A DNA stretch of 64,000 nucleotides from Caulobacteraceae bacterium (GTDB lineage Bacteria > Pseudomonadota > Alphaproteobacteria > Caulobacterales > Caulobacteraceae), in NCBI GenBank assembly GCA_030446805.1, contig JAUJMO010000001.1:639395-703394 (forward strand), in the 5' to 3' direction. The notes beneath the pieces were generated by a model. It was not told where the DNA came from and searched no databases. It saw only the letters and a list, made by a program, of their open reading frames with translations. The position numbers and the translations under genes were made by a program. Position 1 is the stretch's first letter. Each line of letters opens with the position of its first letter. Of the stretch, positions 22,112 to 28,320 are shown piece after piece.

Positions 22112-22765
22112 ATGGCCGACGACCTGCCCCGACAGCGCGCGAGCATCGGCGACGCGCCGGAGATCGCCCCTGCGGCGCCTTTGAGCCCGCGACCGGAACA
22201 GGCCGAGGTGGAGGCGGCGCTGAAGGTGCTGATCCGCTGGGCCGGAGACGACCCCGACCGGGAAGGCCTGCTGGACACGCCCGCGCGCGTGGCCCGCTCC
22301 TACCGCGAGCTGTTCCAGGGCTATGAGACCGATCCCCGCGCCTATTTGGCGCGCACCTTCGAGGAGGTCGGCGGCTACGACGAACTGATCGTCCTTCGGG
22401 ACATCCGCTTTGTCAGCTTCTGCGAGCACCACATGCTGCCGGTGCTGGGTCGGGCCCATGTGGGCTATCTGCCCACCAACCGCGTGGTGGGCATCTCCAA
22501 GCTCGCGCGCGTGGTGCACGGCTTTTCGCGCCGCCTGCAGATCCAGGAGAAACTCACGGCCGAGATCGCCGACACCATCAACGATGTGCTGCAGCCCAAG
22601 GGCGTGGGCGTGGTGGTCGAGGCGGAGCACCACTGCATGACCCTGCGCGGCGTCAACACCCCGGGCGCCAGCCTGTCCACCAGCACCTTTCTGGGCGCCT
22701 TGCGGGAAGACCCGCGCACCCGCCAGGAGTTCCTGGGCCTGGTGCGCGGGGGCCGGGCTCCCTAG
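22112..22765 (+). CDS. folE: GTP cyclohydrolase I
   Basis: Converts GTP to 7,8-dihydroneopterin triphosphate, the first step of folate/pterin synthesis. At 217 residues it has DPDREGLLDTPARVARSYRE, the zinc ligand motif FCEHHMLPVLGRAHVGYLP (Cys104, His107), ISKLARVVHGFSRRLQIQE, and EAEHHCMTLRGVN with the second zinc Cys. It is monocistronic by arrangement. Its stop overlaps that of the convergent DUF883-like gene by four bases. Confidence 0.96.
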   Translation: MADDLPRQRASIGDAPEIAPAAPLSPRPEQAEVEAALKVLIRWAGDDPDREGLLDTPARVARSYRELFQGYETDPRAYLARTFEEVGGYDELIVLRDIRFVSFCEHHMLPVLGRAHVGYLPTNRVVGISKLARVVHGFSRRLQIQEKLTAEIADTINDVLQPKGVGVVVEAEHHCMTLRGVNTPGASLSTSTFLGALREDPRTRQEFLGLVRGGRAP

Positions 22766-23022
22766 CGGCGGGCCAGCAGAACGCCGAACACCACCCCGGC
22801 GGCGAAGGCGGCGCCCGCGGAGACGAAGGGGCGCTCGACGACCGTCTGGCGGGCCACATCCGTTTGCATGGACGCCCAGTCGCGGGCGGCCTGGCTGCGC
22901 TCGTTGAATTGCGAGGCCGCGTTCTGGGCCACGGACTGAAGGCCGGCCAAGGGGCTGGAGGCGCCGCCCGAGCCCTGGCCGCCTTGGCCGCCCTCGCCGC
23001 CGTTGATGGTGGTGTCCGTCAT
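22762..23022 (-). CDS. DUF883/ElaB-like small membrane-anchored stress protein
   Basis: An 86-residue protein: a Gly/Gln-rich disordered N-terminus, a helical middle (NERSQAARDWASMQTDVARQ), and a C-terminal RPFVSAGAAFAAGVVFGVLLARR anchor. This is the layout of the ElaB/YqjD/DUF883 family, inner-membrane proteins with a Gly-zipper anchor that in E. coli are stress-induced and bind ribosomes. A GGGAGAA site precedes the ATG. A GGAAC/GGTT pair 35 bases upstream fits control by an EcfG-type sigma factor (see 23055-23082). Close stress-response neighbours support that role. Confidence 0.7.
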   Translation of the reverse strand: MTDTTINGGEGGQGGQGSGGASSPLAGLQSVAQNAASQFNERSQAARDWASMQTDVARQTVVERPFVSAGAAFAAGVVFGVLLARR

Positions 23023-23054
23023 GCCTTTGTTCTCCCGAAGTGAAACGTGGAACC

Positions 23055-23082
23055 GGAACCACTTACCGTTCCGCTTGGTTCC
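23055..23082. promoter_or_regulatory. palindromic, possibly bidirectional EcfG-type promoter
   Basis: GGAACC and GGTTCC face each other across 16 bases. On the plus strand this gives GGAAC-N17-GGTT 66 bases before the gene at 23146; on the minus strand it gives exactly the same boxes 35 bases before the DUF883-like gene. EcfG sigma factors recognise GGAAC-N16/17-CGTT, so the -35 is perfect and the -10 differs in one base in each direction. Extra GGAAC and GTTCC copies lie within the same 35 bases but are not correctly spaced. Confidence 0.5.
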
Positions 23083-23145: not shown

Positions 23146-23304
23146 ATGACCGACATGCCGACCCACACGCCTTTCCCGGGCACGCCTGACGTGGCCCAAC
23201 CCGACTACGAGCCTGGCGGCCCTGACCTACCGGACTCCCCGGCGATCCCGCCCGAGATGCCCGACGCGGAGCCGTTCAACGACGACGGTTCTCCTTCCGC
23301 CTAA
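23146..23304 (+). CDS. small acidic, proline-rich disordered protein
   Basis: A 52-residue protein (MTDMPTHTPFPGTPDVAQPD followed by Pro/Asp/Glu-rich sequence ending in SPSA). An AAGGA site lies 10 bases before the ATG. It has no domain or signal peptide and is predicted to be unstructured. Small proteins of this composition are common beside stress genes in Caulobacterales. The divergent near-consensus EcfG boxes upstream suggest it belongs to the same regulon. Function unknown. Confidence 0.55.
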   Translation: MTDMPTHTPFPGTPDVAQPDYEPGGPDLPDSPAIPPEMPDAEPFNDDGSPSA

Positions 23305-23365: not shown

Positions 23366-23391
23366 GGAACAGGCATGAGGGTCGACGGGTT
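23366..23391 (+). promoter_or_regulatory. candidate EcfG-type promoter for the KGG protein
   Basis: GGAAC at 23366-23370 and GGTT at 23388-23391 with 17 bases between, 59 bases before the KGG-protein start. The -10 differs from CGTT in one base, as in the palindromic promoter upstream. Confidence 0.4.
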
Positions 23392-23449: not shown

Positions 23450-23680
23450 ATGGCGCAGGAACGCACCGACTCCACGGCCCCCAAGAAATCGACCCGCGGC
23501 TTTGCGTCCATGGACGCCGCCCGCCAGCGCGAGATCGCCAGCAAGGGCGGCCAAAGCGTCCCGCAGGAGAAGCGCAGCTTCAGCCAGGATCGTGAACTGG
23601 CGGCCCAGGCCGGCCGCAAGGGCGGGCAGAACAGCCGAGGCGGTCGCACCGGCGAGGACCAGAACACCGCCGCCGACTGA
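23450..23680 (+). CDS. KGG-repeat stress-induced protein
   Basis: A 76-residue hydrophilic protein with the stress-protein KGG repeat. FASMDAARQREIASKGGQSV is one copy; the second is RELAAQAGRKGGQNSRGG. This matches the GsiB/con-10/YciG-like family, glycine- and lysine-rich proteins induced by glucose starvation, desiccation or the general stress response. Their molecular role is unsettled (hydrophilin-like protection is proposed). A GGAAC/GGTT promoter candidate lies upstream and a strong hairpin follows the gene. Confidence 0.85.
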   Translation: MAQERTDSTAPKKSTRGFASMDAARQREIASKGGQSVPQEKRSFSQDRELAAQAGRKGGQNSRGGRTGEDQNTAAD

Positions 23681-24599: not shown

Positions 24600-26843
24600 T
24601 CAGCGCTTCAGCAACACCACGGCGAACAGCCGCCCCGCGTCGGTCCAGACCCGGTCCTGCCGCCAACCGGCGCGGGCGGCGAGTCCGGAAAACCCCTCCA
24701 CCGTGAACTTGTGCGAGTTCTCCGTATGGAGGGTCTCGCCTTTCTCGAACCGGTAGACGTGACCATCCACCCGCACCGTCTGCGGGCGGAGGCTTTCCAG
24801 GTGCATCTCGATGCGGCGCCCCGCCGGGTTCCAGACCGCCCGGTGGGCGAACCCCTCCAGGTCGAAATCGGCGCCCAGTTCCCGATTGGCGCGGGCCAGC
24901 AGGTTGCGGTTGAACTCCGCCGTGACGCCCTGGGCGTCGTCATAGGCCGCCAGCAGCACCGGCTCGGGTTTCACCAGATCGATCCCCACCAGCAGATAGG
25001 CCCCCGCGCCCAACAGGGAGGCGGCGGACCGGAGGAAGTCCACGGCGCCCTCCTCTGTGAAGTTGCCGATCGTGGAGCCGGGGAAGCAGCCCGTGCGGGG
25101 CTTCCGGACGGCCGCTTCGGGCAGGTGCAGACCCGCGGTGAAATCGCCCGCGAGGGGCTCCACCCGCAGGTGGGGGTAGTCCCGCCGGATCTCGGCCGCG
25201 GCGGCCTGCAGCCGCTCCAGGCTGATGTCGACGGGAACATAGACGGCAAGCTGGGGCGCGGCGTCCAGAACGATGCGCGTCTTCACGCTGGCGCCGCTGC
25301 CGAACTCGACCAGGGCTGCGCCCGGATCGATCTCCGCGGCGATGTCCGGGGCCGCCTCCCGCAGGATCGCGAGTTCGGTGCGCGTCGGATAATATTCCGG
25401 CAACTCCGTGATCGCCTCGAAGAGGCGCGAGCCTTCCTCGTCGTAGAGCCACTTGCTGGACAAGGTCTTCTGCGTCTTTGCGAGCCCCTCGACCACTTCG
25501 GCCAGAAAGGCGTCGCGCTGCTGATGACTGCTGTCCAGGCGGATCACCCGGGGTTCGGCGTCCCAGGCCAGGCGCACGCCGGTGAACTGCCAGCGATGCC
25601 AGGGCTGGAAGAAGTTGCGATAGGTCGGCCGGATATGGCGTGCGGGCGTCAGGCATGACCCCCCACGCAGCACCGCCTGGCTGACCATGAACTTGCCGTT
25701 GTACTCGCCGACCGCGCCCGCGGCGGGCTTGAAGCCGGGGTAAGGCGCATAAGCGCTGCCCGTCCATTCCCAGACATCGCCGAACATCTGGCGCAGCGCC
25801 CCGTTCGCCCCCCCCGCGGCGGCCGGCTCGAGCCAGCCCTCGTCCCGCAGATTGCCCTCGACGGAAACGTCCGCGGCCGCATGCTCCCATTCGGCTTCGG
25901 TCGGCAAGCGCGCGCCCGCCCAGCGCGCATAGGCGTCGGCTTCGTAAAGGCTGACGTGGGCCACGGGCGCATGAAGGTTCAAGGGCCGCAACCCGCCGAG
26001 GGTCATCACGAACCAGGCGTCGTCCATCGCCTCCCAGTAGAGTGGAGCCTTCCAGCCTTCCGCCTGCACGCGGGCCCAGCCGTCCGCCAGCCACAGCTCG
26101 GCGCGGCCGTAGCCGCCCGCGTCCATGAACTGGAGCCACTCGGCGTTGGTGACCAGGCGATCGGCGAGGCGGAACGGCTGGAGGAAGACCCGGTGGCGCG
26201 GCCCCTCGTTGTCGAAACCGAAGCCCCCGGCCTCCGCGTCCCGTCCGATCTCGACCAGACCGCCCTCGAAGGCCAGCTTGCCCATCTCCCCGGGACTGCG
26301 CGACGGCGGAAGGGGCAGGTCGGCATAGGCGGGACGGCGCGGCGTCTGAGCGAACAGGTGCAGCACGTCCGTCAGGATGAGCTCGCCGTGCTGCTCTTCG
26401 TGGGCCAGGCCGACCTCGATGATGGACTCCACACGCCCCTGCGCCCGCGCTCCGAGCGCCAGCACGGCGGTGTCCACATGGCGGCGATAGGCCAGCACCT
26501 CCTCAAGGCTCGGGCGGGTCACCAGCCCACGCGCGCCCCGTTCGCGGCGCTCGCCCAGCGCCTCGTAGTAGGAGTTAAAGAGGAACTGCAGCTCTTCGCT
26601 GTAGGCCGTGTAGCCGGGCGCGTGGGGCAGGAGGACGAAGGTTTCGAAGAACCAGCTGGTGTGCGCCAGATGCCACTTGGCCGGGCTGGCGTCCGGCATG
26701 GACTGAACGACCTGATCCTCGGCGGACAGCGGAGCCGTCAGACGCAGGGTCTCCGCACGGACGGCCGCGAAGCGGTCCAGGATCGATTCCGCGCCGACGG
26801 CCGGAGCGGGTCGGGAACGCTTGGAGGCGGCGGGCTTGTCCAT
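24600..26843 (-). CDS. fused EgtB-EgtD ergothioneine biosynthesis enzyme
   Basis: A 747-residue protein carrying two ergothioneine enzymes normally encoded separately. Residues 1-425 are EgtB: a DinB-like helical domain with SPAKWHLAHTSWFFETF and AHEEQHGELILTD, giving His58/His61, His148 and His152 as iron ligands, then a formylglycine-generating-enzyme-like domain (WLQFMDAGGYGRAELWL, RLPTEAEWEHAA, FGDVWEWTGSAY, RGGSCLTP). EgtB joins a thiol donor to hercynine using O2. From about residue 440 comes the histidine N-alpha-trimethyltransferase EgtD (KTLSSKWLYDEEGSRLFEAI, PEYYPTRTE, SAM motif LVEFGSGASVKTRI, CFPGSTIGNFTEE, LLVGIDLVKP). No stop or frameshift separates them. Start chosen at MDKPAASK; no strong ribosome-binding site. 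Ergothioneine is a thiol antioxidant, fitting the stress neighbourhood. Confidence 0.92.
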   Translation of the reverse strand: MDKPAASKRSRPAPAVGAESILDRFAAVRAETLRLTAPLSAEDQVVQSMPDASPAKWHLAHTSWFFETFVLLPHAPGYTAYSEELQFLFNSYYEALGERRERGARGLVTRPSLEEVLAYRRHVDTAVLALGARAQGRVESIIEVGLAHEEQHGELILTDVLHLFAQTPRRPAYADLPLPPSRSPGEMGKLAFEGGLVEIGRDAEAGGFGFDNEGPRHRVFLQPFRLADRLVTNAEWLQFMDAGGYGRAELWLADGWARVQAEGWKAPLYWEAMDDAWFVMTLGGLRPLNLHAPVAHVSLYEADAYARWAGARLPTEAEWEHAAADVSVEGNLRDEGWLEPAAAGGANGALRQMFGDVWEWTGSAYAPYPGFKPAAGAVGEYNGKFMVSQAVLRGGSCLTPARHIRPTYRNFFQPWHRWQFTGVRLAWDAEPRVIRLDSSHQQRDAFLAEVVEGLAKTQKTLSSKWLYDEEGSRLFEAITELPEYYPTRTELAILREAAPDIAAEIDPGAALVEFGSGASVKTRIVLDAAPQLAVYVPVDISLERLQAAAAEIRRDYPHLRVEPLAGDFTAGLHLPEAAVRKPRTGCFPGSTIGNFTEEGAVDFLRSAASLLGAGAYLLVGIDLVKPEPVLLAAYDDAQGVTAEFNRNLLARANRELGADFDLEGFAHRAVWNPAGRRIEMHLESLRPQTVRVDGHVYRFEKGETLHTENSHKFTVEGFSGLAARAGWRQDRVWTDAGRLFAVVLLKR

Positions 26844-26954: not shown

Positions 26955-26979
26955 GGAACGCTTGGGGGGAGCCGGCGTT
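26955..26979 (+). promoter_or_regulatory. EcfG-type promoter upstream of ecfG
   Basis: GGAAC at 26955-26959 and CGTT at 26976-26979, exactly 16 bases apart. This is a full match to the GGAAC-N16/17-CGTT consensus of alphaproteobacterial EcfG sigma factors, and suggests autoregulation of the sigma gene 110 bases downstream. Confidence 0.7.
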
Positions 26980-27088: not shown

Positions 27089-27646
27089 GTGACGGTGGCC
27101 GACGGTGCGATGAACTGGCGGGACGAGGTGATCGCCCAGATCCCGGCCTTGCGCGCCTTCGCCTGGAGCCTGTCGCGCAACGGCGCCGACGCCGACGACC
27201 TGGTCCAGGACACCCTCACCAAGGCGTGGACGCACCGCAGCAAGTTCGAACCCGGGACGAACCTGCGCGCCTGGCTCTTCACCATCCTCAGAAACACCTA
27301 TTACACCGCCGTGACGCGGCGCCGGCGGGAGGTCGCCGACGAGGACGGCAAGCACGCCGCAACCCTGACCACCCCGGCCACACAGGACTGGAGCGTCGCC
27401 ATGCGGGCGCTGCAAACCGCCATGCACAAGCTGCCCGACGAGCATCGGGAGGCGCTGATCCTCGTTGGGGCGGCGGGCCTGAGCTATGAGGAGGCCGCGG
27501 AGATTTGCGACTGTGCGCTGGGCACCATCAAGAGCCGGGTGAACCGGGCCCGCACGCGCCTGCTCAAGATCATGGAAGCGGACTCGGCGATGGACACCCT
27601 GGTGGCGGAGCTGGACGGCCCCGCAGCCTCCGCCGGCGGGGATTAG
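27089..27646 (+). CDS. ecfG: ECF sigma factor, EcfG family (general stress response)
   Basis: A 185-residue sigma factor with only regions 2 and 4. Region 2 spans IPALRAFAWSLSRNGADADD, LVQDTLTKAWTHRSKFEPGT and NLRAWLFTILRNTYYTAVTR. Region 4 includes LPDEHREALILVGAAGLSYE and EAAEICDCALGTIKSRVNRARTRL. The sequence is of the EcfG (sigma-T-like) type that drives the alphaproteobacterial general stress response. The GTG at 27089 was used; an ATG at 27110 (MNWRDEV) is equally plausible. A perfect EcfG promoter lies upstream and a NepR-like anti-sigma gene overlaps tail-to-tail downstream. The third partner, PhyR, is not in the window. Confidence 0.88.
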   Translation: MTVADGAMNWRDEVIAQIPALRAFAWSLSRNGADADDLVQDTLTKAWTHRSKFEPGTNLRAWLFTILRNTYYTAVTRRRREVADEDGKHAATLTTPATQDWSVAMRALQTAMHKLPDEHREALILVGAAGLSYEEAAEICDCALGTIKSRVNRARTRLLKIMEADSAMDTLVAELDGPAASAGGD

Positions 27647-27810
27647 GTCTTCTCAGCGCCGTTCAGTTGATCCAGGTGCCGGAGCAAGGCCTCCGGAACG
27701 GGCTGCGCCGTCAGGGCGTCGAACCAGGCCCTGAGCAGGACATCCATCTGCGCATCGACGGGCGTCGACGTCCGGCCTGCAGGCACGGCGGGGATGGGCG
27801 TGGGCGACAT
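27643..27810 (-). CDS. nepR: NepR-like anti-sigma factor
   Basis: A 55-residue protein on the opposite strand to ecfG, overlapping its stop by four bases. After a Pro/Thr-rich N-terminus (MSPTPIPAVPAGRTSTPVDA) comes the NepR core: LLRAWFDALTAQPVPEALLR followed by HLDQLNGAEKT. It resembles the family pattern LR.xYxxvvxEPxPdrlldLLxqL. NepR binds and blocks EcfG until phosphorylated PhyR titrates it away. In most relatives nepR precedes ecfG on the same strand, so the convergent layout is odd and means different promoters. No EcfG box is visible upstream of it. The frame is short but the motif and position agree. Confidence 0.65.
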   Translation of the reverse strand: MSPTPIPAVPAGRTSTPVDAQMDVLLRAWFDALTAQPVPEALLRHLDQLNGAEKT

Positions 27811-27897: not shown

Positions 27898-27923
27898 GGA
27901 ACAAGCCGGGCGGGCGTCGCGTT
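27898..27923 (+). promoter_or_regulatory. EcfG-type promoter for the PRC-barrel gene
   Basis: GGAAC at 27898-27902 and CGTT at 27920-27923 with 17 bases between; the start codon follows 31 bases later. A full consensus match in ideal position. Confidence 0.72.
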
Positions 27924-27954: not shown

Positions 27955-28320
27955 ATGAACGACAACGTCACGAGCGGCAATCCGCTCATCTCTGCGGCCA
28001 AGGTGCAAGGCACGGCCGTGTACGACACCGAGGGCGGACGGCTCGGACAGGTGGAGGACATCATGCTGCACAAGGTGAGCGGCGAGGTCGCCTACGCCGT
28101 TCTGTCCTTTGGGGGCGTGCTCGGGATCGGCGAGCGGTTCACCCCCCTGCCCTGGTCGGTGCTGACCTATGACCCGGACCGCGGCGGCTATGTCGTGCCC
28201 TTGGCCAAGGAGCGGCTGCAGAACGCTCCCCACTACGACCGCGCCGAGCTCACCAACGACGACAACGGCTGGGGCGCGCGGGTCAATGACTTTTACCAGG
28301 TCACGCCCTCCTGGGCTTGA
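27955..28320 (+). CDS. PRC-barrel domain protein
   Basis: A 121-residue protein made of one PRC-barrel domain. LISAAKVQGTAVYDTEGGRL and GQVEDIMLHKVSGEVAYAVL are followed by SFGGVLGIGERFTPLPWSVL, the typical continuation in this stress-associated subgroup. PRC barrels occur in photosynthetic reaction centre H subunits, RimM and many small stress proteins, where their ligand is unknown. A consensus EcfG promoter precedes it, so it is very probably a general stress gene. The Gly/Gln-rich gene follows 32 bases later and may share the transcript. Confidence 0.87.
   Translation: MNDNVTSGNPLISAAKVQGTAVYDTEGGRLGQVEDIMLHKVSGEVAYAVLSFGGVLGIGERFTPLPWSVLTYDPDRGGYVVPLAKERLQNAPHYDRAELTNDDNGWGARVNDFYQVTPSWA

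Follow-up and report, generated by a model that had tools for sequence, protein, structure and literature searches.

An EcfG-type palindrome between two divergent genes

Two small genes that point away from each other within the window (the whole stretch of DNA analysed here, 64,000 nucleotides) are separated by a gap that contains a perfect inverted repeat. Can this single element serve as a promoter for both of them? The repeat, a candidate two-way EcfG promoter, lies at positions 23055-23082 and consists of the arms GGAACC (23055-23060) and GGTTCC (23077-23082) with 16 bases between them, exactly as described in a preceding sequence-only reading. General stress promoters recognized by EcfG (sigma-EcfG, ECF15) have the form GGAAC-N16/17-CGTT. 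The palindrome matches the -35 box, the spacer and, with the variant GGTT, the -10 box of such promoters on both strands.

On the plus strand, the -35 box GGAAC (23055-23059), a spacer of 17 bases and the -10 box GGTT (23077-23080) form an EcfG-type promoter (23055-23080) that points towards a gene for a proline-rich protein. On the minus strand, the promoter at 23057-23082 points towards a DUF883-like gene and is composed of GGAAC at 23082-23078, again a spacer of 17 bases, and GGTT at 23060-23057. Both half-promoters are complete: each has the -35 box GGAAC and a -10 box NGTT at a distance of 16-17 bp, and the perfect dyad holds the recognition boxes in both orientations within one element. 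In this it differs from ordinary EcfG promoters, which read one way. The -10 box GGTT is not unusual, as in Sphingopyxis it ranks with the commonest EcfG -10 boxes after CGTT (PMC7083833).

The exact sequence GGAACC-N16-GGTTCC is present as a single copy in the 3.04-Mb genome, where base composition alone predicts about 0.36. Hence the mere presence of the palindrome is unremarkable; its non-random part is the position, i.e. the intergenic gap of two divergent genes about 4 kb from ecfG. The start codons are located 34 nt (DUF883-like gene) and 65 nt (proline-rich gene) past the respective -10 boxes, which is within the norm for EcfG sites of this genome (median 36.5 nt, 10-90% range 24-149 nt).

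Inspection of the sequence revealed an extra GGAACC at 23049-23054 on the plus strand, in tandem with the left arm (GGAACCGGAACC, 23049-23060). It was ruled out as an alternative -35 box, as it has no -10 box at EcfG spacing. A search for a sigma-70-like promoter at the palindrome found none; rather than having a sigma-70 -10 box in common, with starts to both sides of it, the two directions swap -35 and -10 boxes. With a score matrix built from the EcfG promoters of the host genome, the flanks of the palindrome reached 11.8 and 13.0 depending on the direction, compared to a mean of 16.2. However, this matrix did not separate promoters from chance matches in coding sequence and was thus not used as evidence.

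The surrounding EcfG-type regulon

The gene to the left (22762-23022, minus strand) codes for a small protein of 86 aa. Calling it DUF883-like, as had been done before, is fair: it matches DUF883_C with an E-value of 8e-6, just under the Pfam gathering score. The gene to the right (23146-23304, plus strand) codes for a proline-rich acidic protein of 52 aa without a Pfam or NCBIfam match. It is followed on the same strand by an EcfG-type site GGAAC-N17-GGTT (23366-23391), which is kept in the sister genome G017, and the gene of a KGG stress-induced repeat protein (23450-23680; PF10685, E 2e-16). The long gene at 24600-26843, with a methyltransferase-like C-terminal part, is taken by us to be egtB-like and possibly an EgtB-EgtD fusion.

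A second site, GGAAC-N16-CGTT (26955-26979, plus strand), is of the autoregulation type and lies upstream of ecfG itself (27110-27646, plus strand). The ecfG product is an ECF sigma factor with regions 2 and 4, is 73-82% identical to the sigma gene product of phyR loci in other genera, and has a best NCBIfam E-value of 3e-66, with the specific models all below cut-off. On the minus strand at 27643-27810 a NepR-like anti-sigma factor is weakly indicated (PF18557, E 0.005, below the gathering score, with a query in which the near-identical N-terminus of the sister was joined to the C-terminus from the window). A third site, GGAAC-N17-CGTT (27898-27923, plus strand), precedes a small gene at 27955-28320 that is presumably PRC-barrel-like. 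Each of the sites at 23366, 26955 and 27898 is thus upstream of a gene, and the presence of ecfG and a nepR-like gene near the palindrome is likewise a context typical of EcfG promoters.

Genome-wide, 78 sites of the form GGAAC-N16/17-SGTT were found. As the loci of the host genome were chosen for containing the motif, fractions are comparable there and counts by spacing are not: 53 of the 78 EcfG-spaced sites were promoter-positioned in the right orientation, whereas off-spacing sites within these loci were so placed in 17 of 70 cases (p ~1e-7). Genes were called from codon composition by a simple script instead of a standard gene finder, and the analysis covered stretches around motif matches rather than whole genomes. 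The targets include KGG, ecfG, phyR, CsbD-like, CBS and ferritin-like genes, most of them named from sequence. The ecfG gene in the window and this regulon agree with the earlier proposal of EcfG as the responsible factor; the palindrome is very probably recognized by EcfG in at least one direction.

The locus in related genomes

The sister G017 is the sole other genome of the genus that was found. The 28-bp palindrome and the sequence to its left are identical in the two genomes; on the right, the first differences appear after 3 bp. This identity is weak evidence because the two species are close; their DUF883-like proteins are 98% identical. The comparison was extended to Phenylobacterium, Caulobacter, Brevundimonas and other Caulobacteraceae, in which the same cluster usually contains ecfG, the egtB-like gene and KGG. 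In most of the Caulobacteraceae loci seen, the egtB-like gene is divergent from ecfG.

Several clusters of relatives also hold phyR-DUF883 together with a small proline-rich gene divergent from phyR. In the host genome phyR is found away from ecfG, at C5:310284, beside an ecfG-like paralog and a second symmetric EcfG site (all in the stretch L062:1670-2925, corresponding to G000:C5:310169-311424). With phyR elsewhere, the DUF883-like gene takes the place that phyR holds in relatives; presumably phyR was lost from or moved out of the cluster in the host lineage. DUF883 relatives sit behind phyR in other genomes, and the DUF883 genes of relatives are EcfG-linked, either by this position or through a site of their own. 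The proline-rich gene of the window is the positional counterpart of the small proline-rich proteins beside phyR, and a strict EcfG site of its own was absent for this gene in most relatives. Small proline-rich acidic proteins of about 45-70 aa with the pattern PEIDPxxxPxEAP..DDGRP occur near phyR and KGG genes (L066:7111, L068:4651, L069:4240, L071:7178, L072:6962).

In the genus g11, the syntenic gap between phyR/DUF883 and the proline-rich gene has a symmetric site GGAACG-N15-GGTTCC upstream of phyR (L069:4415-4441 and L070:6849-6875). It reads GGAACGACGCCTAAAGTCCAAGGTTCC in G027; 25 of the 27 bases are the same in G010, where the flanks have diverged and where no divergent gene was found beside the site. 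The host genome has further symmetric sites. The one at C5:311397 lies between two divergent genes beside phyR, and in G017 both of its arms are kept and the spacer is changed. Those at C4:357123 and C5:175290 are flanked by tandem genes; for the stretch around C4:357123, no full homolog was found in G017.

Is the symmetry selected?

On the opposite strand GGAAC reads GTTCC, which makes the EcfG consensus nearly self-complementary. Since GTTCC contains the GTT of the -10 box, a symmetric site is possible at all, and any EcfG promoter becomes symmetric once CC follows its -10 box. Such a CC tail was present in 33 of 407 EcfG sites (8%) and in 43 of 358 off-spacing sites (12%; p=0.09), and within EcfG promoters in 13 of 165 divergent and 10 of 121 tandem ones (p=1.0). 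The tail is thus no commoner at EcfG or divergent sites, meaning that symmetry is not enriched in the fetched loci.

Palindromes of the form GGAACC-Nk-GGTTCC were counted in 119 genomes. They occurred at 16, 11 and 14 places with k=11, 12 and 13, at 33 places with k=15 and at 14 places with k=16. The k=15 palindrome is 2.4-fold over-represented (Poisson p ~7e-6). An over-represented class of the exact N16 palindrome was rejected, its 14 places comparing with about 13.7 per off-spacing. Off-spacing palindromes served as the control in place of a reversed pattern, which was discarded on account of its different sequence.

For the gene context, EcfG-spaced palindromes of the types GGAACC/GGTTCC and GGAACG/CGTTCC were counted, with homologs collapsed to places. 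Gaps between divergent genes accounted for 23 of 80 places, compared to 2 of 37 for off-spacing palindromes (p=0.0025), the majority of which fall within genes (25 of 41), and to 7 of 61 for asymmetric EcfG sites (p=0.010). Many of the symmetric sites are thus probably real promoters, several of them serving divergent stress-type gene pairs (e.g. CBS, ferritin-like, phyR-adjacent). The ratio of divergent to tandem positions was 23:23 for symmetric sites, 7:18 for asymmetric EcfG sites (p=0.06) and 21:24 for the asymmetric promoters of the host genome (p=0.46). Hence the enrichment between divergent genes that the sequence-only reading had called for was found for EcfG-spaced palindromes as a group relative to off-spacing ones, whereas the exact N16 form was not over-represented and symmetry was not enriched in divergent over tandem EcfG promoters. 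Symmetry does not clearly stand out as a specially selected design.

The sequence-only interpretation was borne out in part. Symmetric EcfG sites recur between divergent genes in other genera, but where relatives have EcfG sites facing both ways in the ecfG-egtB gap, these are in most cases two separate sites, with a few tens of bases between them. Of the listed Caulobacteraceae loci, L079 alone has a symmetric site in this gap.

One site for two directions

The most likely interpretation of the sequence, which we favor with some reserve, is that the palindrome acts as a single EcfG site that can be read in either orientation, by one polymerase at a time. The two boxes would be interchangeable for the EcfG-RNA polymerase. 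If domain 4 of the sigma factor occupied the left GGAAC and domain 2 the right GGTT, transcription would proceed rightward into the proline-rich gene; in the mirror orientation it would proceed leftward into the DUF883-like gene. Since both complexes occupy the same 28 bp, only one could be bound at a time. EcfG dependence, firing in both directions and mutual exclusion are what we infer from this arrangement.

Alternatively, the palindrome could be a one-way EcfG promoter, probably directed towards the DUF883-like gene, with the opposite match being a by-product of the near-palindromic consensus that yields no useful transcript. This is the less probable reading, yet one to be taken seriously. 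It is in line with the CC tail rates (33/407 versus 43/358 and 13/165 versus 10/121), which are as chance predicts, with the EcfG linkage of the DUF883 genes in relatives, where the proline-rich gene often lacks a site, and with the symmetric site that G010 retains without a divergent gene. However, it would leave the proline-rich gene, whose distance to the site is normal, without another recognized promoter in the window. That the palindrome arose by chance and has no role is very improbable. The expected number of copies and the ordinary frequency of the N16 form would allow it, but off-spacing palindromes are mostly inside genes, whereas the palindrome of the window lies in a divergent gap of an ecfG locus, with neighboring EcfG sites and leaders of normal length. 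Still harder to sustain is an operator for a dimeric regulator with arms two helical turns apart, in which case the match to EcfG promoters would be coincidental. The perfect 7-bp dyad GGAACCA/TGGTTCC with arm centers about 22 bp apart would suit such a protein; against it stand the single copy in the genome, the lack of a directly adjacent gene for a DNA-binding regulator, and the exact EcfG spacing on both strands in an EcfG-rich locus.

Two-way firing by symmetry had been put forward as a design not known to be a described class. This does not hold, as symmetry-based bidirectional promoters have been described for sigma-70 (Warman et al.; PMC12825309, PMC10268837). In these, the -10 element is common to both directions and one binding event excludes the other (PMC12825309). 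Like the palindrome, they engage the polymerase in two opposed orientations at one element. In their case it is the -10 box that both directions have in common, and transcription starts within it or on either side; in the palindrome, by contrast, each direction has as its -10 box the -35 box of the opposite one, and the sigma factor belongs to the ECF type. In the open-access literature, to which the search was mostly confined as opposed to subscription papers, no description of a symmetric ECF promoter was found. If both directions fire, symmetry-based bidirectionality would extend from sigma-70 to an ECF sigma factor, with a geometry in which -35 and -10 boxes swap roles, and it could be predicted which EcfG promoters turn two-way by two base changes.

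An interleaved dyad in Rhodobacterales

In the general stress response of Alphaproteobacteria, the divergent phyR and nepR-ecfG are both driven by general-stress promoters (PMC8103513). In Rhodobacterales, the gap between them contains an interleaved dyad, GGAACC-NAACGC..GCGTTN-GGTTCC, which comprises two EcfG promoters in opposed orientation, shifted by about 4-6 bp relative to each other. Of the 80 loci retrieved with EcfG, 23 carried it (L105, L106, L108, L109, L111, L113, L116-L118, L120, L121, L123, L125, L128, L131, L133, L135, L136, L142, L145 and L147-L149); as these loci are related, the 23 dyads are not independent. The dyads are mostly located 250-350 bp upstream of the ecfG match, and the distances from one -35 box to the opposed one fall into two sharp peaks, 17-18 and 21-23 bp. 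Like the palindrome, this is an EcfG-driven divergent pair; unlike it, the two promoters are offset and found in 23 loci, whereas those of the palindrome coincide fully and are found in one genus.

From its sequence, the dyad may act as a two-way promoter for the core of the stress response, with one direction excluding the other, and it is a stronger case than the palindrome; the feedback of this core would then depend on one mutually exclusive site. Tentatively, one might go further and suppose that ECF sigma factors of the GGAAC/GTT type have a built-in route to two-way promoters, which Alphaproteobacteria would have used repeatedly for stress operons that compete for polymerase. Its forms would be the coincident sites of the host and other Caulobacteraceae and the interleaved phyR / nepR-ecfG dyads of Rhodobacterales.

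Symmetric EcfG-spaced sites were also seen in divergent stress-type gaps outside Caulobacteraceae, at L135:16331-16357 next to a DUF883-like gene and at L106:8368-8395 next to genes of small membrane proteins.
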